Part shown: positions 698 through 31,016 of the stretch, piece by piece
How the letters are laid out: each line of letters begins with the position of its first letter
Position numbering within the stretch: position 1 is the first letter of the stretch
Assembly: GCA_017428285.1 (NCBI GenBank)
Contig: JAFRRE010000125.1
Location: 1-33,793 of the forward strand
Direction: 5' to 3'
DNA length: 33,793 nucleotides
From: Bacteroidales bacterium
GTDB lineage: Bacteria; Bacteroidota; Bacteroidia; Bacteroidales; F082
Notes under the pieces: model-generated
Seen by the model: only the letters and a program-made list of their open reading frames with translations
Databases searched by the model: none
What the model was told of the DNA's origin: nothing
Translations under genes and position numbers: made by a program

Positions 698-727
698 CAA
701 AAGTACGACTTTTTTCTTAATCTACAA
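698..727 (-). promoter_or_regulatory. Bacteroidota promoter of the rpsF-rpsR operon
   Basis: On the minus strand, TTG (725-727) is followed after exactly 19 nt by TACTTTTG (698-705), matching the phylum's -33/-7 pattern TTG-N19-TAnnTTTG. The -33 element overlaps the last codons of the upstream 2-epimerase gene. Transcription should start near 691, about 55 nt ahead of rpsF. Confidence 0.85.
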
Positions 728-1912
728 CACTTTACAAGAAATTATTTTGTCAAGCATGAACTCAGCTGCATGGCCGTCGCCGAAAATATCGGGGAAAGCA
801 GTGGGCGGGTTATTCTTGAAGTGTTGCCAAGCGTCAATGATGCGGCTTCCGTCGGCATCGGCAAGGATGGCGTTGCCGGTCTGAACGATTTCCACCCATT
901 CGGTCTCTGGCCTGAGGATGATACAAGGCTTCTTGAAGAAATAGGACTCCTTTTGCACACCACCCGAGTCGGTGATTACCAATTGGGCGTGACGCTCAAG
1001 GGCGATGATCTCCAAGAAGGAAACGGGTGGAATTAAAATGATATTCGGGCTGTTGAAAATCTGCTCCTGAAGCTTCTCCTCAAGGTTGGTTTTCAAGAGT
1101 TTGGATGTCCTTGGGTGTAAAGGCAACACGACTTGACATTCCTTTGATAGACGGATTAAGGCACTGAAAATGGCGCTGAGGCGTTGGGGTTGGTCGGTGT
1201 TGCTGTCGCGGTGGATGGTGGTCAAAATGAAAGGCTTGCCTTTTAGTTCCAAGCGCTGTATGATGTCGGTCTTTTCTTCGGCAATGTTGGCAAAATGCAG
1301 ACTGTTGTCGTACATGATGTCGCCGCAATGGTAGACCTTGGGATTGTCGATGGTTGGTTTAGCGGTCCCTGAGCCCTCGGTTCCTGAGCTTGTCGAAGGA
1401 GTCGAAGGGCCGCCTTCATCGATAGAAAACCCTTCCCGTTTCAGATTTTCCAGTCCAGCCTTGGTAGGCGTGAAGAGCAGGGTGGAGCAGTGGTCGCACA
1501 CGATGCGGTTGATTTCCTCGGGCATGCTTTTGTTGAACGAGCGCAGTCCTGCTTCGATGTGGACGATGGGCACATGGATTTTGGCGGCTGCCACGGCACC
1601 GGCGAGGGTTGAGTTGGTATCGCCATAGAGCACGATAAAGTCGGGTCGCTCCTTTATTAATATAGCTTCGATGCCTTCGGTCATGCGGGCAGTCTGTACG
1701 CCATGTGAGGCCGAGCCAACATGAAGGTTGTAGTCGGGACGCGGGATTTGCAGCTCATCAAAGAAGATCTGCGACATGTTGTCATCGTAGTGTTGTCCCG
1801 TGTGGACAATGACTTCTTGTATGCGGTCGGCATAATGGTTACGGATGGCGCGGCTCAATGCGGCTGCTTTGATGATTTGGGGTCGAGCCCCGATGATGGT
1901 GACAAGTTTCAT
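722..1912 (-). CDS. wecB: UDP-N-acetylglucosamine 2-epimerase (non-hydrolysing), carrying an in-frame palindromic repeat
   Basis: The enzyme interconverts UDP-GlcNAc and UDP-ManNAc in the cytoplasm, for surface polysaccharide synthesis. I place the start at ATG 1910-1912, giving 396 residues that begin MKLVTIIGARPQIIK, the family's usual N-terminus with Arg10 and Lys15. An upstream TTG at 1930 would add six residues and overlap radC, and is less likely. Other family motifs are YGDTNST (near 96), HIEAGLR (near 118), MPEEINR (near 131), TTIHRDSN and ITDSGGVQKES. Between KREGFSIDE and PKVYHCGDIMYDN the protein carries an extra low-complexity stretch, GGPSTPSTSSGTEGSGT (about residues 167-183). 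It is encoded by a copy of the dispersed palindromic repeat and is absent from typical relatives. The gene follows radC by 14 bp and is probably co-transcribed with it. Function is likely retained, because the insert falls in a loop between conserved blocks. Confidence 0.93.
   Translation of the reverse strand: MKLVTIIGARPQIIKAAALSRAIRNHYADRIQEVIVHTGQHYDDNMSQIFFDELQIPRPDYNLHVGSASHGVQTARMTEGIEAILIKERPDFIVLYGDTNSTLAGAVAAAKIHVPIVHIEAGLRSFNKSMPEEINRIVCDHCSTLLFTPTKAGLENLKREGFSIDEGGPSTPSTSSGTEGSGTAKPTIDNPKVYHCGDIMYDNSLHFANIAEEKTDIIQRLELKGKPFILTTIHRDSNTDQPQRLSAIFSALIRLSKECQVVLPLHPRTSKLLKTNLEEKLQEQIFNSPNIILIPPVSFLEIIALERHAQLVITDSGGVQKESYFFKKPCIILRPETEWVEIVQTGNAILADADGSRIIDAWQHFKNNPPTAFPDIFGDGHAAEFMLDKIISCKVL
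1364..1414. repeat. Palindromic repeat copy A, inside the 2-epimerase coding sequence
   Basis: The plus strand contains CTGAGCTTGTCGAA (1384-1397), flanked by a second partial copy (CCTGAGCCCTCGG before it and GTCGAAGGGCCG after it). This is the same core as the intergenic copies at 5841, 18326 and 19123. Its length of about 51 bp is a multiple of three and no stop codon arises in the gene's frame, so it is translated as about 17 residues rich in Ser, Thr, Gly and Pro. Confidence 0.85.
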
Positions 1913-1926
1913 GGGTGTGTGTTGTT

Positions 1927-2622
1927 TCAAAAGGTCATTTCTCCATGGTCGCGGAAGCTGTAGTAGCGTTCGTTACCGATGATGATGTGGTCGATGACGG
2001 CGATGTCTAAGAGTTGGCCGGCCGACGCGATTTTTTGGGTCAGTAAACGATCATCCTTGCTGGGTCGTGGGTTACCCGAGGGGTGGTTGTGGCCCAAGAT
2101 GATGCATGTAGCGCCGTAGTTCAAGGCGTGTTTGAAGATGATCCTTGGGTCGGCGATGACATTGGTCGTTCCTCCGTTGCTGATGCATTCCACTTTCAGT
2201 TCGTGGAAGCTTTGGTCGAGGTACATGACAAGGAAATGCTCCTGCTTCATGTCATCGATATGGGAAAGGAAACGTTCGAACGAGGTTGTGGAGTCTTTGA
2301 CCTCGTCGGGAAGGTTGGCTTCTGCGCCGCGGCGGCGTTTGCCGAGTTCAAGGGCGGCCATTATGGTGATGGCCTTGGCTCTGCCAACGCCTTTGAAGGT
2401 TTCCAACTCCTTCAGCGAGAAATTGGAGAGGTTGATGAGGTTGTTGTTGGCTTTGCCCAAGATTTCGCGAGCCAGGTCCACTGCCGATTGCCCCTCTTTG
2501 CCGGTACGCAAAAGAATAGCCAAAAGCTCCGAGTCGCTCATGGCAGCCTTGCCTTTCTCGGCCATTTTTTCACGAGGCCTGTCATCCTTTGCCCATTCCT
2601 TGATGGATTTCTTCTGGGTCAT
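1927..2622 (-). CDS. radC: RadC family protein (JAB/MPN domain)
   Basis: The 231-residue protein has the two-part RadC structure: an N-terminal helix-hairpin-helix-like region (KGVGRAKA, residues 77-84) and a C-terminal JAB1/MPN-type metalloprotease fold. The zinc-site signature HNHPSG sits at residues 178-183, followed by PSKDD at 187-191. Length and motifs match the family. The biochemical role is unsettled: an early link to DNA repair was not upheld, and natural transformation or mobile-element functions have been proposed. The start ATG at 2620-2622 follows a plausible promoter at 2645-2673. The 2-epimerase gene begins 14 bp after the stop, so the two are likely one transcript, though a functional link is not evident. 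Confidence 0.93.
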   Translation of the reverse strand: MTQKKSIKEWAKDDRPREKMAEKGKAAMSDSELLAILLRTGKEGQSAVDLAREILGKANNNLINLSNFSLKELETFKGVGRAKAITIMAALELGKRRRGAEANLPDEVKDSTTSFERFLSHIDDMKQEHFLVMYLDQSFHELKVECISNGGTTNVIADPRIIFKHALNYGATCIILGHNHPSGNPRPSKDDRLLTQKIASAGQLLDIAVIDHIIIGNERYYSFRDHGEMTF

Positions 2623-5795: not shown

Positions 5796-5840
5796 TCAGT
5801 TATCAGTTGATAGTTGTCAGTTGTTCAGTTAAAGCAGGTC

Positions 5841-5912
5841 GCTGAGTACTGAGTCCGTCGAAGTATCGAAACACCGTCCATACAATAGTCGGCCCTTCGA
5901 TGGGCTCAGGAA
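5841..5912. repeat. Palindromic repeat copy B
   Basis: A degenerate copy of the CTGAG...TCGAA / TTCGA...CTCAG element lies in the miaB leader, with a left part GAGTCCGTCGAAG and a right part GGCCCTTCGATGGGCTCAGG. The preceding bases GTTGTTCAGTT-AAGCAGGT and the central CACCGTC-ATACAA also match copy C at 18297-18381, so the two longer copies share about 90 bp. Confidence 0.8.
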
Positions 5913-5936
5913 TCCTTAGCTTGTTGAATTGGGCGG

Positions 5937-9437: not shown

Positions 9438-11312
9438 TTATTTCTTGTCGACCATCACTTTTTGGCTGACCAAACGGCCGTCTTCTGTCAAACCTTGGAG
9501 GATGTAGACACCAGTGTTCAGTTCGCTCATGTGGTTGGCGCTGATTCGCTGGCCTTTCATGTTGTAAACATTCAGCACGTTGATGATTCTGTTGTCGACA
9601 TTTTCCTCAATTCCAGTGACCTCGATTTGAACAAAGTCCTCTCCTTCGGGGGTGAGGGCAAATTCGGATTCGCAGTGCTCGTAAACAGCGGTCAGCTGAT
9701 AGGTGTATTGTCCTAAGCCGCATTCATCGAAATAAGAGGTGGCATCGGCTTCCACTTCGATGATGACCTGATCCTTGTAGATTTCGCTGTATCGATAGAG
9801 GTTATAATGCAGGGGCTGGGTCTCAGGGGCTATCCAGCTAATTTTCACACCAAATAGTTGCTCTTCCATATCATAGACATATTCGCCTTCAAGGTTCTCT
9901 GGTGGGAAGCAAGTGATGACTGGTGGTTCGATGGGCCCCATGGTGCCGTCAGGACCGATGTTTTGGCCGTAAATGCCGCCGTCAATGCAATTCACCCAAG
10001 TCACAATGTTTTGACCCATGATGAAACCTGGGGTGTTGTCGCATACCGTCCTTCTATAGACATTCGAGCACAAGGTCTTGGCCCATAGTTGGTTGCCGTT
10101 CATATCTACGCCCATCGCCTCGATCGTGGTGAAGTAGGAGTTACTGGGACTGCTTTTCGTGTAAATCACGCTGAAACCGCTGCCGTCCTCAAAAGCATCG
10201 ACCATGATGTCGGCATAGGAGACGCCTACATAATCGGCCAACAGGATGCCTTCTCCCCAAATTCTTTCGCCCGTGGCGGTGATGCGGTTGACATAAAGTC
10301 TTGACTGGCTTTGCGTCGAGGCATCGGTCTGCTCGTATGCTACGATGAGGTCGTGGCTGACGGGGTCGACAGCGCCGTAGGCGTAACCATAGTAGTTCAT
10401 CGGGTCGGTGGAATGCACCGATATGCCGTTCTGGTCGTTGATGGTGGAAAAACCTATCTCATTGAAATGAAAAACATAAGTGTTGAAGGCTCCTCCGATG
10501 CCAGGATGCCAAATGTAGGCATATCCGCCGCCCATGCCATCAGCAATAGCCTTATGGATATAGGTGGATTGGAAAGTCTGCGAAGACATGAGGAGTTGGT
10601 CGGGACTGATGATGCCACCCTCCGGCGTGACAGCGATGACATAAAGCTCCTTGTCGGTATAAAAACCAGAGCCCACTTTTTCGTAAGTGAGCAGCACATT
10701 GTTGTCGATGCTCAAAGTGAGTTGGCCGAACATGCACTTGTATCCGCCGCTGTCGCTGATGGTGGTGGTGGGTCCTAAAGTGCCATCGGCACCAACATAT
10801 TGCAAATAGAGATTGGTGTAGTCAAAGCCTAAGGCCCAAAAACCGCCATCGTCGCCGGCTGTCAATTCGGTGCGCGAAAAGCCAAGGCCACCAAATAGTT
10901 GCAAGCCTTGTTCTCCCCAAACGAAATTGCCGTCAGGATCAATCTTCACAGCGTATGTGAAGCCGTCGTAAGTGGCAAAACAACTCACCACGCAGCCATC
11001 GGTGGTGGTAGTCATGGCGACACCTTCCGACATCGACGAAAATTCATGTCCGCCGATATGGATGCCGTCATTGCCCCATTGAGGCACACCTTCAAAATTA
11101 AGGCGCTGCAAGGTGGGTGACCAACCATTGGAGGCTGATCCTTCCCATTGGACATAAGTGTCACCAGTGTTTGTGTTGGTGGAGAGATAGACTTCGCCGT
11201 CGTTGTTACCGCAGTTGGCGATGAAAGTGTTGTTAATCGGGTCGTCGACCCATTGGGCATGCAGTGCTGTGAAAACCAATAAGCCTGCTAAGAAAAGTAC
11301 AAGTTTTTTCAT
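9438..11312 (-). CDS. Secreted protein with FN3-like and T9SS sorting domains (tandem copy 1)
   Basis: The preferred start is ATG 11310-11312, giving 624 residues that begin MKKLVLFLAGLLVFTALHAQ, a standard signal peptide. An upstream in-frame ATG would add eight polar residues ahead of it. The large middle part has many short segments of the type DPDGNFVWG and ADGTLGPTT, consistent with a beta-propeller-like fold. A fibronectin type III-like domain lies near residues 470-565 (LHYNLYRYSEIY, TSYFDECGLGQYTYQLTAVY). The last 65 residues or so are a T9SS type A sorting domain (LNVYNMKGQRIS, LNTGVYILQGLTEDGR, VSQKVMVDKK). The protein is thus expected on the cell surface or secreted. It is a clear paralogue of the next gene upstream (11337-13217), 24 bp away. 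Substrate or binding target is unknown; no catalytic motif was recognised. Confidence 0.85.
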   Translation of the reverse strand: MKKLVLFLAGLLVFTALHAQWVDDPINNTFIANCGNNDGEVYLSTNTNTGDTYVQWEGSASNGWSPTLQRLNFEGVPQWGNDGIHIGGHEFSSMSEGVAMTTTTDGCVVSCFATYDGFTYAVKIDPDGNFVWGEQGLQLFGGLGFSRTELTAGDDGGFWALGFDYTNLYLQYVGADGTLGPTTTISDSGGYKCMFGQLTLSIDNNVLLTYEKVGSGFYTDKELYVIAVTPEGGIISPDQLLMSSQTFQSTYIHKAIADGMGGGYAYIWHPGIGGAFNTYVFHFNEIGFSTINDQNGISVHSTDPMNYYGYAYGAVDPVSHDLIVAYEQTDASTQSQSRLYVNRITATGERIWGEGILLADYVGVSYADIMVDAFEDGSGFSVIYTKSSPSNSYFTTIEAMGVDMNGNQLWAKTLCSNVYRRTVCDNTPGFIMGQNIVTWVNCIDGGIYGQNIGPDGTMGPIEPPVITCFPPENLEGEYVYDMEEQLFGVKISWIAPETQPLHYNLYRYSEIYKDQVIIEVEADATSYFDECGLGQYTYQLTAVYEHCESEFALTPEGEDFVQIEVTGIEENVDNRIINVLNVYNMKGQRISANHMSELNTGVYILQGLTEDGRLVSQKVMVDKK

Positions 11313-11336
11313 GATGATATGATTTTTAGATTCCAT

Positions 11337-13217
11337 TTATTGATTGTTTAATACGACCTTCTTTGTGACAAGTTTGCCAGTGGAGGTTAGCCCTTGGATG
11401 ATGTAAACGCCTGAACTCAGTTCACCAAAGTTAGCTTTGCGAATCACCTGGCCATTGGTGGAATAGATTTTTAAGACTGTGATGATTATGTTTTCGCTAT
11501 CGTTTTCGGGAACCGATGTCACCTCTATTATAATATAGTCCTCTCCATCAGGGGTTAGGGCGAACTCCGACTCAAAGTCATCGTACAAGGCTGTGAGTTG
11601 ATATTTGTATGTGCTGGGTGCCGTCTCATCAAAGTAGGATGTTACATTGGCATCAATTTCGATGACATTGGTTGTCCCGTCATCAAGATTTTCTCGGTAG
11701 AGGTTATAGTGGAGAACACTGTAGGCTGGTGCTTCCCAGGTAAGCATGGCGCCGTATGAAGCAGTTTCTTCATTGTAAAGATAGGAGCCTTTGAAGTTTT
11801 CAGGTGCATAACAGCAGGGGACTGGCGGGGGCGGCAGGGGACTGACCTCACCCAAGGCACCGTCCCATCCGATGTTTTGGCCATAGACACCACCCTCATC
11901 GCTGTTGACCCATGCCACAATGTTTTGTCCGTCATAAAAGCCAGTAGTGTTTTCGCTGATGGTTTTATTGTATCGGGTCGAACTCATGATAGTGTTCCAC
12001 TGCTGGTTTCCTTCGTTGTCGTAGCCCACAGCTTCAATGGTGCCTTGACTGGTTCCGTAAGTCACTACGAATCCATATACGGCATCGATGGCATCTACAT
12101 GGATGTCGCTATAGGAACGATTTGTGTAGTCCGCTACAAGAATGCCGTCACCCCAAGGCTTTTCGCCTGATTCCGTGATGCGGTTGACATAGACTCGGTG
12201 TTCGGATTGGGAGGCTGCATCCTTTTGGAGATAGGCGATGATGAGATCGTTACTCTCGGGGTCGACGGTGGCGTAGGCATTGGTGTAAAAGTGACTGTAG
12301 TCAGGACTATGTACAGCGATGCCGTTGGGGTCTGTGATAGTGGGCGTGCCGTTCTTATCGAAATGCGTGACGTAGGTGTTATACACGCCACCTATGGCGT
12401 TGTGAAATTGATAGACATAGCCGCCTCCTTGGTTGTCGGGAATGGCATAATGGACATAGCTGGCACCTATGGTCTGTTGCCCAAACAAAAGCGTCTCGGG
12501 GAAAATTTGTTCGCCATCCTTGTTGTATCCTGCGACGTGGATTTCCTTGTTGTAATTGGTATAGCCTTGTAGTGTTTGCTTGGCATAAACTACAAAGACA
12601 CCGTCTTCAGCAGGCACCAATAGACCATTGGAGCATTTTTTTGCAGGGTCTTTGATGGTGGTCTTGGGGCACAGCGTGCCGTCGGCATTGATATATTGCA
12701 GGAAGGTGCTGTCCATGTCGGTGCCTAAGGCCCATACACCGTCGTCATGGTCATAATAATAGGTTGACAACACTTCGGAACGGCCACCGCCTTCACCGTC
12801 GAAGAGCATGAGTCCATGTTCACCCCATGGGAAGGAGCCGTCGGCATTAATTTTGACCGCCCAGTGATAAGGTCCGAGGGTGCGGAACACTGTTACCACG
12901 CCTCCGTTGACAGCGGTCATGGAATAGCCTGGAGACCAGGTCGCAAAATCGGGTGTGGTGACATGGATCCCGTTGGCGGGCCATTGCGGAACGCCGTCGG
13001 CATCCAGCCGTTGCAACCATGGAGACCAACCGTTTTCGCCTTGGTAATGCCATTGCACATAAGAGTCACCCGTCGAGACATCGGTTGAAACATACACCTC
13101 GGCGGCACCATCGGCACAATTGGCAATGCGGGTGTTGGTGGCTGGGTCGTCGACCCACTGGGCTTTCAATGTTGCCAAAGAGGCCAAAGTCAAGAATAGT
13201 AAAGTGAGTTTCTTCAT
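11337..13217 (-). CDS. Secreted protein with FN3-like and T9SS sorting domains (tandem copy 2)
   Basis: The 626-residue product begins MKKLTLLFLTLASLATLKAQ (signal peptide), then WVDDPATNTRIANC, nearly the same as the mature start of its downstream paralogue (WVDDPINNTFIANC). Shared landmarks include NGWSPWLQRLDADGVPQW, VYVNRITESGEKPWGDGILVADY and VVAWVN-GGVYGQNIG-type segments. An FN3-like domain (LHYNLYRENLDDGT, TSYFDETAPSTYKYQLTALY) and a C-terminal T9SS sorting domain (IYSTNGQVIRKANFGELSSG, VYIIQGLTSTGKLVTKKVV) follow. It is first in the transcript 13217 to 8455, with a -7 element at 13247-13254. Function is unknown. The pair looks like an older tandem duplication, since differences are spread along the whole length. 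Confidence 0.85.
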   Translation of the reverse strand: MKKLTLLFLTLASLATLKAQWVDDPATNTRIANCADGAAEVYVSTDVSTGDSYVQWHYQGENGWSPWLQRLDADGVPQWPANGIHVTTPDFATWSPGYSMTAVNGGVVTVFRTLGPYHWAVKINADGSFPWGEHGLMLFDGEGGGRSEVLSTYYYDHDDGVWALGTDMDSTFLQYINADGTLCPKTTIKDPAKKCSNGLLVPAEDGVFVVYAKQTLQGYTNYNKEIHVAGYNKDGEQIFPETLLFGQQTIGASYVHYAIPDNQGGGYVYQFHNAIGGVYNTYVTHFDKNGTPTITDPNGIAVHSPDYSHFYTNAYATVDPESNDLIIAYLQKDAASQSEHRVYVNRITESGEKPWGDGILVADYTNRSYSDIHVDAIDAVYGFVVTYGTSQGTIEAVGYDNEGNQQWNTIMSSTRYNKTISENTTGFYDGQNIVAWVNSDEGGVYGQNIGWDGALGEVSPLPPPPVPCCYAPENFKGSYLYNEETASYGAMLTWEAPAYSVLHYNLYRENLDDGTTNVIEIDANVTSYFDETAPSTYKYQLTALYDDFESEFALTPDGEDYIIIEVTSVPENDSENIIITVLKIYSTNGQVIRKANFGELSSGVYIIQGLTSTGKLVTKKVVLNNQ

Positions 13218-18281: not shown

Positions 18282-18325
18282 TTTTTATAGTTATTAGTTG
18301 TTCAGTTGTTCAGTTGAAGCAGGTT

Positions 18326-18381
18326 GCTGAGCCTGTCGAAGCACCGTCAATACAAGTTGGCCCTTCGACAAGCTCAGGGGC
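18326..18381. repeat. Palindromic repeat copy C
   Basis: The arms CTGAGCCTGTCGAA (18327-18340) and TTCGACAAGCTCAG (18364-18377) pair at 13 of 14 positions around a 23-nt loop. Homology to copy B extends upstream to about 18297 (TTGTTCAGTTGAAGCAGGT). Confidence 0.88.
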
Positions 18382-18389
18382 CTTAACTT

Positions 18390-19044: not shown

Positions 19045-19122
19045 CGGAAAAAAATGGAACGATAGCTTTTTTATTTTGGTTTCATACGATTTTCGTGGGT
19101 TTTGCGTTTAAAGCTAAGGTCG

Positions 19123-19175
19123 TTGAGCCTGTCGAAACGCCGACCAATAATAAATCGGCCCTTCGACAAGCTCAG
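19123..19175. repeat. Palindromic repeat copy D
   Basis: The left arm TTGAGCCTGTCGAA (19123-19136) and the right arm TTCGACAAGCTCAG (19162-19175) pair around a 25-nt loop. The element lies in the divergent gap between rsmG and the glucosaminidase gene. Confidence 0.87.
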
Positions 19176-19216
19176 GGTCCTTTGGCCATGAGCCTTAGTA
19201 CAAAAGCACTAGAAAA

Positions 19217-23242: not shown

Positions 23243-23776
23243 CTACAGTTTCCAAAGCGGCAAGGAATAGGACACGTAAAGCATGAGGCCATGCCCAAAA
23301 TAAGTTTCCGACCCACTATCACCATTCGATGAGATCCAACGAACTACCCTCATACCGTCTTGAATGCCAATTCCCAGTTTGAAGTTTTTGTAACTTCCGC
23401 CTGCAGAAATACCATAATAGTTATATAAGAATTCATTGCCACCTAATCCCAATCCAAAGCGTAAGTTTGTGAACAATCCCCATTTTTGAAAAGGCGTGCT
23501 GGCCGTGAATTCTCCAAAAGCCATCGGACCGTGAGAGAAAACTTCGATAAGATGAAAACCAACGCCCCCGCCCAAGGCGATGTAAGGGCTGATTTGGTAG
23601 TCATAGGCAATGGAAAAAGGATATCCTGCCTCAAACTTCAAATAACTTCCTTTCTGTTTGTAGGTTGAAGTGTTCTGGCGAGATCCAGCGTCGTTGCTGG
23701 TCGCTCCAATGACTTGCGCTTGTGCGGCTGTGGCCAGTGTTGCCAATATCACAATAGTAAGAAGGATTCGTCTCAT
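23243..23776 (-). CDS. Small exported barrel-like protein (tandem copy 1)
   Basis: The 177-residue protein begins with a signal peptide (MRRILLTIVILATLATAAQAQ). The mature part alternates polar and aromatic/hydrophobic residues in strands (GSYLKFEAGYPFSIAYDYQ, YIALGGGVGFHL, YYGISAGGSYKNFKLGIGIQ, GHGLMLYVSYSLPLWKL). This is the pattern of a small 8-stranded outer-membrane beta-barrel, and an aromatic residue near the end (LPLWKL) fits barrel assembly. The family is not recognised beyond that. It is a close paralogue of the gene upstream (23795-24307), 18 bp away, and probably co-transcribed with it and the TolB-like lipoprotein. The start ATG is at 23774-23776. Confidence 0.75.
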   Translation of the reverse strand: MRRILLTIVILATLATAAQAQVIGATSNDAGSRQNTSTYKQKGSYLKFEAGYPFSIAYDYQISPYIALGGGVGFHLIEVFSHGPMAFGEFTASTPFQKWGLFTNLRFGLGLGGNEFLYNYYGISAGGSYKNFKLGIGIQDGMRVVRWISSNGDSGSETYFGHGLMLYVSYSLPLWKL

Positions 23777-23794
23777 GGCTTAATAATTAGATTT

Positions 23795-24307
23795 TCAATA
23801 CAGTTTCCGAAGCGGCAAGGAATAGGACACATAAAGCATGAGGCCGTGTTCTATATAGTTTTCCATATCAACGAATATTCCGTTGTGTACTCCTACGCCC
23901 AATTTAAAGTTCTTGTAACTGCCACCCGCCGAAAGTCCATAATAGAAATAGGCCTGGCCGCTCCACATTCCCACGCCTGATCTGGCATCGACGAACAACC
24001 CCCATCGTTGAAGAGGTGTGCTAGCTGTGAATTCTCCAAAAACCAGTGGACCGCCATCAGCATCGATAAAAAGAAACGGAATCTGGAAGCCAACACCTCC
24101 ACCCAAGGCGATGTAAGGGTTGATTCGGTAATTATAGGCAATGGAAATGGGTGTTCCCACTTCAAACTTCAAGTAACTTCCTTTCTGTTTGAAGGTTGAA
24201 GTGTTTTGGCTAGAGCCATTGTCTTTGCTGGTCACTCCAATGACTTGCGCCTGTGCGGCTGTGGCCAGAGTTGCCAATATCACAATAGTAAGGAGGATTC
24301 GTTTCAT
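23795..24307 (-). CDS. Small exported barrel-like protein (tandem copy 2)
   Basis: The 170-residue product starts MKRILLTIVILATLATAAQA, almost identical to its downstream neighbour's signal peptide, then QVIGVTSKDNGSSQNTSTFK. The strands GSYLKFEVGTPISIAYNYR, YIALGGGVGFQI, FGEFTASTPLQRWGL and YYGLSAGGSYKNFKLGVGV line up one to one with the paralogue, and the C-terminus is SYSLPLRKLY. The two differ mainly in putative loops (FIDADGGP against VFSHGP; VDMENYIEH against a longer loop). That is what is expected for outer-membrane barrels whose outward loops diverge. It lies 11 bp after the lipoprotein gene. Function is unknown. Confidence 0.75.
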   Translation of the reverse strand: MKRILLTIVILATLATAAQAQVIGVTSKDNGSSQNTSTFKQKGSYLKFEVGTPISIAYNYRINPYIALGGGVGFQIPFLFIDADGGPLVFGEFTASTPLQRWGLFVDARSGVGMWSGQAYFYYGLSAGGSYKNFKLGVGVHNGIFVDMENYIEHGLMLYVSYSLPLRKLY

Positions 24308-28787: not shown

Positions 28788-28926
28788 GGGGGATTCAGAG
28801 GAACGAAACAATCTATATGGACAATTATTGCGCGAAAGTACGAAAAAATCCACAATCGGTAACTATTCGAAAGTATCGAATAGCTCAAAAATCTGCTCTT
28901 TTTTTATTTCCATATCAAATTCTTTT

Positions 28927-28934
28927 TATTTTTG
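28927..28934 (+). promoter_or_regulatory. Probable -7 element for the lipoprotein pair
   Basis: TATTTTTG matches TAnnTTTG and lies 28 nt before ATG 28963. No TTG at the standard distance. Confidence 0.55.
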
Positions 28935-28962
28935 CCCTTTGAAAACTCAAAATCAATTTACT

Positions 28963-29940
28963 ATGAAGAAACTAAAAAAGATTGCATCAATAGTGATGCT
29001 GGCAGCCGCGGTGGTCTTTGCCGCAGGCTGCACAAAACCCGATGAACCGAACAACGGGGAGAATAATGGGAATGGAAACGGTGGTGGAGATAGCCCTGAG
29101 GTGCCGACTGTTCCAACAGGTGCCATTGATGGAGCATTTACCATCAATGAAAACGGAGGCAAGGTCTATTTCTCGCAAGGCAACTTGCAGTATCAGGCTT
29201 CGACCAACACTTTCCGTTTTGCTGATAACCAATGGAACTTTATAGGTGGCTCATACGAAGACAATCAAATGGGTAACGTCAATGGAAGTGACAATTGCCT
29301 CATTTCCAATACTTATGATGGCTGGATTGATTTGTTTAGCTATGGTACTAGTGGTTGGAATGGAGGTTGCGCTAGTTTTGAACCTTATGCTTATTCCTCC
29401 TCCCCAGATGGTTTTCTTGATAAAGACCTTGCGGGTGAATATGCCAAAGCCGACTGGGGCGTTTACAACGCCATCAGCAATGGTGGAAACCAAGCGGGAT
29501 TGTGGCGCACTCTGACCAAAGACGAATGGGAATACATTATCAATGGGCGTAACGGTAACCGATATGCCAGGGCTCAGGTGAACGGTGTGAATGGCATCAT
29601 CCTCCTGCCTGATGGTTGGGACAACTCGGTGTATGAACTCAAGAATGTGAACTCAGGAGGCAACAACTGGGACATCAATACGATAAACCAATCCATTTGG
29701 GAGAATACCTTAGAGTCTGCAGGTTGTGTGTTTCTGCCCAATGCAGGTTGGCGCAGCATTAATAGCGTAGGAATTCGTGTATATGAGACAGGAACATACG
29801 GAAATTATTGGTCTTCAACGGCCTATAACACTTCTTCCCCCCATGCTTACAAGCTGAGTGTCGGTTGGCAAGGACCAGGAGTCTCGGCTTCTTTTGCAAA
29901 TAACGGCTATGCTGTGCGTTTGGTGCAGGATGTCCAATAA
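28963..29940 (+). CDS. FISUMP/DUF1566-like surface lipoprotein (tandem copy 1)
   Basis: The preferred start is ATG 28963, giving 325 residues that begin MKKLKKIASIVMLAAAVVFA with lipobox Cys23 (AAGC). The mature N-terminus TKPDEPNNG has acidic residues close to the Cys, resembling a Bacteroidota lipoprotein export signal, so surface display is plausible. A Gly/Asn-rich linker follows (residues 31-45), then a domain with FTINENGGKVYFSQGNLQYQ, WIDLFSYGTSGW and ADWGVYNAISNGG. The C-terminus, with YWSSTAYN and YAVRLVQD, matches the end of the Fibrobacter succinogenes major paralogous (FISUMP)/DUF1566 type as I know it. The exact role is unknown; ligand or glycan binding is a guess. It is the first of two tandem paralogues with near-identical leader and signal regions. 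Confidence 0.8.
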   Translation: MKKLKKIASIVMLAAAVVFAAGCTKPDEPNNGENNGNGNGGGDSPEVPTVPTGAIDGAFTINENGGKVYFSQGNLQYQASTNTFRFADNQWNFIGGSYEDNQMGNVNGSDNCLISNTYDGWIDLFSYGTSGWNGGCASFEPYAYSSSPDGFLDKDLAGEYAKADWGVYNAISNGGNQAGLWRTLTKDEWEYIINGRNGNRYARAQVNGVNGIILLPDGWDNSVYELKNVNSGGNNWDINTINQSIWENTLESAGCVFLPNAGWRSINSVGIRVYETGTYGNYWSSTAYNTSSPHAYKLSVGWQGPGVSASFANNGYAVRLVQDVQ

Positions 29941-29978
29941 GCTGTTTTCCATTTTTAAACTCATAAAATCAACTCACT

Positions 29979-31016
29979 ATGAAGAAACTAAAAAAGATTG
30001 CATCAATAGTGATGCTGGCAGCGGCGGTGGTCTTTACCGCAGGCTGTACGAAACCCGATGAACCGAACAACGGGGGTAATGACAACAATGGTGGTGGAGG
30101 CGAGACCCCCGAGGTGCCGACCATCCCGACAGGTGCCGTTGACGGCAAGTTTTCTATCAATGAGAACGGAGGTAAGGTCTATTTCTCACAGGGTAACCTG
30201 CAATACCAAGCCTCGACTCAAACTTGGCGCTTCGGCAATCCTTGGGATTTTGTCGGAGGCACATGTGGCATTACAGGCTATAACCCTGATGGTGAGCCTT
30301 GGCCTGGTACCATTGCTGAAAGCAATAACTGTCATGCTTCAGCCACCTACACAGGATGGGTTGACCTGTTCTCATGGGGCACCAGCGGCTGGGCAGGAGG
30401 AGTAATGGCCTGCCAACCTTATAGCATTGTAGGGAACCCCTATCCCCACACTTATGCATGGGAACATTATATTGTTGGCGACAATAGCAACAATGGCCTT
30501 GTTGGCCAGTATGCCAATGCCGACTGGGGCGTTTATAATGCCATCAGCAACGGTGGCAACCAAGCAGGACTGTGGCGCACCTTGACCAGCGACGAGTGGG
30601 AATACGTCATCAATGGCCGTGAAGGGAGTCGCTTTTGCAAAGCTACCCTAAATGGTGTGAAAGGCCTCATTCTTATTCCCGATGGCTGGGACAATGTTTC
30701 GTTTGCTTTGAATAGAATTAACTCAACGGGTGCTGCGTTTGATGCCAACACCATCAGCCAATCGACTTGGGAAAATACCTGTGCCCCTGCCGGACTAGTG
30801 TTTCTGCCTCAAACGGGGAAACGGGTGTGCAATGGTATGGGAGACCATTATGTCGTTAGTTTGGATTTAAGCGAAGGTTATGGTCTTTATTGGTCTTCAA
30901 CTGCAAAGACGGAGACATCCGCTTATCAATACAACTTCCATAGCGGAAACGTGAATCTTGATGGTGGATTGCGCTATCAAGGCTTGGCCGTGCGCCTGGT
31001 GCAGGATGTGCGGTAA
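29979..31016 (+). CDS. FISUMP/DUF1566-like surface lipoprotein (tandem copy 2)
   Basis: The 345-residue paralogue starts MKKLKKIASIVMLAAAVVFT with Cys23, then TKPDEPNNGGNDNNGGGG. Its DNA from about 10 bp before the start codon through codon 34 is almost identical to copy 1, while the mature domain has diverged. The same landmarks appear in the same order: FSINENGGKVYFSQGNLQYQ, GWVDLFSWGTSGW, ADWGVYNAISNGG, LWRTLTSDEWEYVINGRE, YWSSTAKTETS and LAVRLVQDVR. An insertion near residues 130-180 (NPYPHTYAWEHYIVGDNSN) makes it longer than copy 1. It is 38 bp after copy 1 and has a strong terminator, so the two form one operon. Function is unknown. Confidence 0.8.
   Translation: MKKLKKIASIVMLAAAVVFTAGCTKPDEPNNGGNDNNGGGGETPEVPTIPTGAVDGKFSINENGGKVYFSQGNLQYQASTQTWRFGNPWDFVGGTCGITGYNPDGEPWPGTIAESNNCHASATYTGWVDLFSWGTSGWAGGVMACQPYSIVGNPYPHTYAWEHYIVGDNSNNGLVGQYANADWGVYNAISNGGNQAGLWRTLTSDEWEYVINGREGSRFCKATLNGVKGLILIPDGWDNVSFALNRINSTGAAFDANTISQSTWENTCAPAGLVFLPQTGKRVCNGMGDHYVVSLDLSEGYGLYWSSTAKTETSAYQYNFHSGNVNLDGGLRYQGLAVRLVQDVR

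Follow-up and report, generated by a model that had tools for sequence, protein, structure and literature searches.

A dispersed palindromic repeat read in frame in a WecB-like gene and in other genes of related rumen Bacteroidales

Palindromic elements inside the genes of Rickettsia (Rickettsia palindromic elements, RPEs) were reportedly described by Ogata and others. According to parts of two accounts, RPEs are dispersed palindromic sequences of about 105-150 bp that in Rickettsia lie in intergenic DNA as well as in frame within conserved genes, where they are tolerated as added peptide (PMC2229807, PMC10969869). The GTAG- and CGTC-tagged REPs are small palindromes, often in inverted pairs; portions of one survey report that some are intragenic, in several species, with many in genes of replication and repair, that the end motif of CGTC-tagged REPs is an unpaired CGTC (or TGTC/CCTC), and that CGTC repeats are said to have no dedicated transposase (PMC3733652). 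Bacteroidetes are named among the holders of CGTC repeats, and the portions of that survey used here give no intragenic Bacteroidetes case (PMC3733652).

In the window (the whole stretch of 33,793 nucleotides of Bacteroidales DNA analysed here), a palindromic repeat likewise lies in frame inside a conserved gene, its translation being deduced from open frames. The comparison with RPEs made in the preliminary description is apt as a way of working. The likeness is one of description; the present element, found in Bacteroidales hosts, is smaller, with an arm of 24 nt as its unit, a nested form of 48 nt and pairs that measure about 60-70 nt. Unlike GTAG-tagged REPs, the consensus of 101 copies has no GTAG; unlike CGTC-tagged REPs, for which parts of PMC3733652 give near-invariable AT pairs at stem positions 1-2, its stem begins GG/CC. 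The end of the repeat has the consensus tCGGCCC, and some copies have GTC before the stem. With the REP/BIME elements that have RAYT transposases, as portions of the sources describe them (PMC3733652, PMC2817692), it shares about 100 copies per genome, covarying stems and inverted pairs, whereas among 68 loci matching PF01797 no RAYT-like locus was flanked by a clean copy. Neither a description of this repeat nor the literal 14-mer CTGAGCTTGTCGAA was found in the literature searched. In-frame palindromes in Rickettsia and intragenic REPs are therefore known; relative to that literature the new elements are the repeat in a Bacteroidales clade, the apparent reuse of the same loops by unrelated repeats and the putative exchange of loop cassettes. 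Protein-coding palindromes would thereby be extended from Rickettsia and other reported species to rumen Bacteroidales.

The host gene in the window, on the minus strand at 722..1930, encodes a WecB-like member of the UDP-GlcNAc 2-epimerase family, with 402 codons from a TTG and an ATG 6 codons downstream. Its product matches PF02350 (Pfam, E 2.3e-97) over residues 35-396, and the match spans the insert. The repeat occupies 1364..1411 of the same strand, 48 nt that encode GPSTPSTSSGTEGSGT (residues 174-189, G174-T189). Both ends fall on codon borders. The earlier proposal of an in-frame repeat within a conserved enzyme is confirmed; the span of about 17 residues at 1364..1414 given with it has to be corrected to 16 codons. 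In the insert a second arm is nested in the loop of an outer 24-nt arm, and CTGAGCTTGTCGAA is exact at 1384-1397. It is identical at 48/48 nt to an intergenic copy (L041:1487-1534) in G001, the nearest genome compared, which shares 28% of the sampled 31-letter words of the window. That copy is covered by no ORF of at least 80 codons with a score above 0.1, and one ORF opens 5 nt further on. The insert in wecB of G024 (L005 and L096, which are one gene) is likewise identical to that of the window.

AlphaFold2 was run on the WecB-like protein alone with 43 input sequences, and the best of five models had a mean pLDDT of 88.5 (the others 77.0-84.5). The fold was mostly confident except at residues 173-188, where pLDDT fell below 50, between a helix at 157-165 and a strand at 198-201. 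The nearest solved structures are Thermus UDP-2,3-diacetamido-glucuronate 2-epimerases (TM 0.92 by target, 0.84 by query), and two sequence alignments to them are interrupted at the insert, at residues 168 and 198. The insert thus models as a disordered loop, as the flexible loop first suggested would have it. Proteins that carry it presumably stay functional.

With up to 3 mismatches allowed, CTGAGCTTGTCGAA matches the window 11 times; 100 shuffles averaged 3.4 matches, and none reached 11 (largest 9). The preliminary description had placed matching intergenic copies at 5841, 18326 and 19123. The repeat there is real, but these places are left arms carrying 1-3 mismatches; between genes, the exact matches sit in the right arms of palindromes, at 18364-18377 and 19162-19175 on the minus strand. 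Three inverted arm pairs, with no strand assigned, lie between genes: a degenerate one at 5840..5912 (limits by eye, matches with 2-3 mismatches), with a further half-copy recognised from its sequence beside it at 5915-5928; one at 18322..18384 (limits by eye, 15-nt arms 93% complementary, DNA fold z -3.99); and one at 19116..19182 (28-nt arms 79% complementary, DNA fold z -4.61). Short tandem AGTTGTTC-like repeats adjoin intergenic palindromes at 5798-5830 and 18290-18318. At gathering scores Rfam gave no match in the window.

Alignment of the G001 copies yielded the arm tCGGCCCTTCGACARGCTCAGGGACCTt, with the 24-nt consensus GGCCCTTCGACARGCTCAGGGACC, and intergenic arms often stand head to head as pairs. 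Folding lends no support to a stable hairpin formed by one arm alone, as neither the genic copy at 1364-1411 (DNA fold z -0.16) nor a simple 24-nt arm (z 0.41 and 0.10) forms a significant hairpin of its own; covariation does back three stem pairs. In 152 copies, drawn from the window and from the stretches fetched from G001, three neighbouring pairs were complementary in 137, 136 and 132, above all 500 shuffles, and the next pair outwards showed no pairing (15/152 complementary, mostly G/A). The triplets flanking the core vary as complements (CCC/GGG in 70 of the 152 copies, CGT/ACG in 17, TGC/GCA in 6, TCC/GGA in 5), which indicates that the arm pairs or once paired, despite the weak folding of a single arm.

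The core TTCGACNNGCTCAG occurs 101 times in G001, where the reversed-pattern control gave 0 and simple arithmetic predicts less than one chance occurrence in 3.5 Mb. A copy was counted as genic when it lay in frame in a stop-to-stop ORF no shorter than 150 codons, its flanks looked coding-like (score cut-off 0.15, chosen by eye) and 12 codons or more lay on either side of it. By this definition 34/101 copies were genic, or 42 with 8 sites added by hand after reading the proteins; because the ORFs run from stop to stop, a few N-terminal cases (for example L201) may lie upstream of the true start. The expected further genic copies were found, in several frames, by a scan of this relative with one core pattern. 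Pfam was run on 29 of these ORFs and found a domain in 26 and none in 3. The hosts include gyrase A (its tail), ValS, DnaX, a pseudouridine synthase, TilS, FtsZ (beyond its C-terminal domain), EPSP synthase, an NqrF-like protein, a dihydroorotase-like amidohydrolase, mevalonate diphosphate decarboxylase, a prolyl oligopeptidase, a DcuC carrier, CotH and secretion-tail linkers. The names NqrF, dihydroorotase, ValS and DnaX were assigned in this analysis and are consistent with the Pfam matches.

The arm equals 8 codons and is open in five of six frames, so that arms landing in genes can survive where the peptide forms a loop or linker. The strict 34 copies fall in the open frames as 17 (read as GPSTGSGT), 12 (VPEPVEGP), 3, 1 and 1, with 0 in the frame that contains a stop. 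That 29/34 lie in two of the five open frames has P 7e-7, after multiplication by 10 for the post-hoc choice of frames and with copies taken as independent; selection probably causes this bias. Single arms make up 34/42 of the genic copies against 25/59 of the others (Fisher P 1e-4). For annotation, GPSTGSGT or VPEPVEGP in these proteins is likely to be a translated repeat and not a conserved motif. Among individual genes of G001, FtsZ (L189:1085-2968) holds at least 2 repeat copies beyond its C-terminal domain, and one alpha-2-macroglobulin-like gene region (L083, L084, L085) has apparently three. At L077:309-2600 a 764-codon open frame joins two ketoacyl-synthase-like parts across an inverted repeat pair, a possible gene fusion via the repeat.

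Orthologues of wecB were sampled twice (30 and 80, partly the same genes), the closer ones coming mostly from metagenome genomes of rumen or gut Bacteroidales. Among 81 sequences (the window, 79 of the 80, and G033), the spacing between two fixed blocks is 27-28 residues in 62 and 34-46 in 19, the window included. The insert is thus absent from 62/81 orthologues, some of them about 90% identical or more, an outcome in favour of the earlier reading. The 19 inserted sequences carry 6-18 extra, repeat-like residues; by eye, 8 have one arm (6-8 extra residues) and 11 have nested or extended forms. Relatives as distant as about 58% identity keep the 27-28-residue spacing.

A tree of 48 wecB rows (19 inserted), built with the insert region left out, places the insert label with 12 changes, 8 of them forced by well supported branches. 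On this gene tree the label is hardly clustered, 31/500 shuffles being as low. The state of the insert is nevertheless tied to its flank. The residue before it is Glu in 19/19 inserted and Asn in 29/29 uninserted rows, and across all 62 uninserted sequences it is Asn in 45, another residue in 17 and Glu in 0. The difference over an 18-nt flank is 0.39-0.50 between states and 0.00-0.24 within them; this holds for all four background bins, of which the two closest contain few pairs (3 and 3, and 5 and 2). Between L090, with the insert, and its near-identical uninserted orthologue L092, most bins show 0-4 differences per 60 sites and one bin near the 3' end shows 10, against 16/48 sites beside the insert. 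Other pairs of opposite state differ there at 20/48, 19/48 and 12/48, the same excess, less clear over a higher background. It is doubtful which genome L092 (G005) comes from, since its contig measures 3.4 kb and has a stated coverage of 3; the analysis makes no use of the low repeat count of G005 (2). An insert state linked to flank type while scattered on the gene tree reads as cassette exchange. To judge from these alignments, wecB behaves as if two old loop alleles had been exchanged in short tracts. It looks like one or a few insertions with alleles later swapped between species, and not a fresh insertion in the window genome. Such swapping was not foreseen in the preliminary description.

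Two other host genes were compared within the genus. The NqrF-like gene was matched in 27/40 genomes. As read here, its loop is short (23-24 residues) in 12, namely 2 close relatives and 10 more distant ones, and long (34-61) in 15. The long loops hold the window repeat in G001, G019 and G033 and a degraded nested form of it in G024, a GGCTGCCACA-TGTGACAGCC palindrome in G017, G028, G008 and G013, short tandem repeats in G031, G022, G034, G036, G021 and G035, and another inverted repeat in G009. In these loci (L221-L248) the repeat-filled loop precedes the NAD-binding motif, in frame; by eye, a tandem resembling the AGTTGTTC-like repeats is translated in G031, G022 and G013. The dihydroorotase-like gene was matched in 37/40 genomes, and 26/30 fetched loops were read; as the reading needed an open frame, the 4 others could include broken ones. 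By eye, ten of these loops hold the window repeat, 3 in degraded form; it occurs there in either orientation, nested or paired. GACGCGAT-type palindromes fill some of the other loops, with an exact one in G016. The repeat-holding loop is N-terminal (L250-L279). Both additional palindromes are themselves dispersed, the GGCTGCCACA-TGTGACAGCC one in 17/60 genus genomes at up to 10 copies, the NqrF copies counted in, and the GACGCGAT-type one in 35/60.

Since the same loops hold different repeat families and orientations across species, they have been filled more than once, which is the strongest sign of mobility here. It is possible, and we put it forward tentatively as a little short of an even prospect, that a few loops in enzymes serve as lasting landing sites where unrelated dispersed repeats swap in frame between species, filled alleles passing by short-tract recombination. 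The repeats concerned are the window REP (both orientations, nested), the GGCTG...CAGCC palindrome, the GACGCGAT-type palindromes and the short tandem repeats. If this is true, intergenic repeats would keep supplying housekeeping proteins with new loops and linkers.

For the repeat as a whole, we consider it highly probable that a REP-like dispersed element of a rumen Bacteroidales clade has been kept in genic loops, and that its wecB allele has grown and been exchanged. The source would be a dispersed, REP-like palindromic element with the 24-nt arm as its unit, whose genic survivors would mostly read as linker peptides, Gly/Ser/Thr-rich GPSTGSGT or Pro/Glu-rich VPEPVEGP. In wecB, an early insertion between helix and strand would have given the inserted allele, which may then have grown by further arms in frame-preserving steps; the alleles would later have been exchanged between species via short recombination tracts.

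Chance low complexity, or a local tandem expansion merely resembling the repeat, would fit a low-complexity peptide whose length and sequence vary among inserted wecB relatives. It is extremely improbable, as the 48-nt identity to an intergenic copy rules it out, and the number of cores in G001 against chance and against the reversed control, as well as the covarying stem pairs, argue in the same direction. A harder case, and the main rival to exchange, is that the wecB inserts are many independent insertions at one site and not one exchanged cassette. The 12 label changes, with 8 forced, are what it would predict, and both orientations in one dihydroorotase-like loop indicate separate events in that gene. 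However, the 19 inserted wecB rows share, by eye, the orientation and a non-repeat downstream spacer, all 19 have the flanking Glu, and the flank differs far more between states than within them, with few pairs in the closest bins; we regard independent insertion as somewhat unlikely.

The scattered tree pattern requires gains or losses, and could also come from an ancestral insert repeatedly lost by precise deletion. This is very unlikely, because distant relatives have the short spacing and the uninserted genes carry a different flank, with no Glu in 62, instead of the inserted flank minus the repeat. Positive selection of the insert, perhaps as a linker or a regulatory loop, instead of mere tolerance, would agree with the frame bias, the use of the same loops by unrelated repeats and the wecB cassette pattern. 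All three are expected too from purifying selection elsewhere combined with neutral recombination, and we hold positive selection to be unlikely.

The distribution of the repeat is patchy. In a draw across the phylum the core was present in 152/296 genomes, most abundantly in G001 with 101 copies, followed by a genome with 49; in the genus, G033 reaches 167 core copies and 2/20 genomes have none. Copies presumably move by a trans-acting enzyme. The earlier suggestion that the repeat can move is supported indirectly, by the different orientations and families within one loop, and no mobilising enzyme was found; no transposition event was seen and no target-site duplication was definable. Y1 transposases (PF01797) match in 42/60 genus genomes, and of the 68 loci searched (4 fetched twice, one more overlapping), none with a transposase or RAYT flanked by a clean repeat copy, four have the core at up to 1 mismatch. 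In L295 and L324 exact cores lie more than 1.2 kb from the PF01797 match, and in L322 a 1-mismatch core lies about 500 nt away. In L217, from G001, TTCGACACGCTGAG, one mismatch from the core, stands about 100 nt from the Y1 gene inside the locus's own palindrome, which is possibly a distant relative of the window repeat. That palindrome, beside the Y1 transposase at L217:1920-2051, is GCGTGTCTTCGACACGC and contains TTCGACACGCTGAG. None of the six G001 Y1 loci holds an exact core, and five are without it even at 1 mismatch; three of the six were checked for repeats and have other palindromes. The families at L215 and L216 are CATCCCGTAGGGATG and GGAGGTTGAAACCTCC.

Junk-like repeat DNA thus seems to remodel ordinary enzymes in a group of rumen bacteria. 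With about one third of the copies of one repeat genic in one genome, and many close relatives at hand, it becomes testable how repeats enter proteins, what loops tolerate them and whether they are of any use. Elsewhere in the window, three neighbouring paralogue pairs (9438-13217, 23243-24307 and 28828-31016) appear by eye to be tandem duplications.
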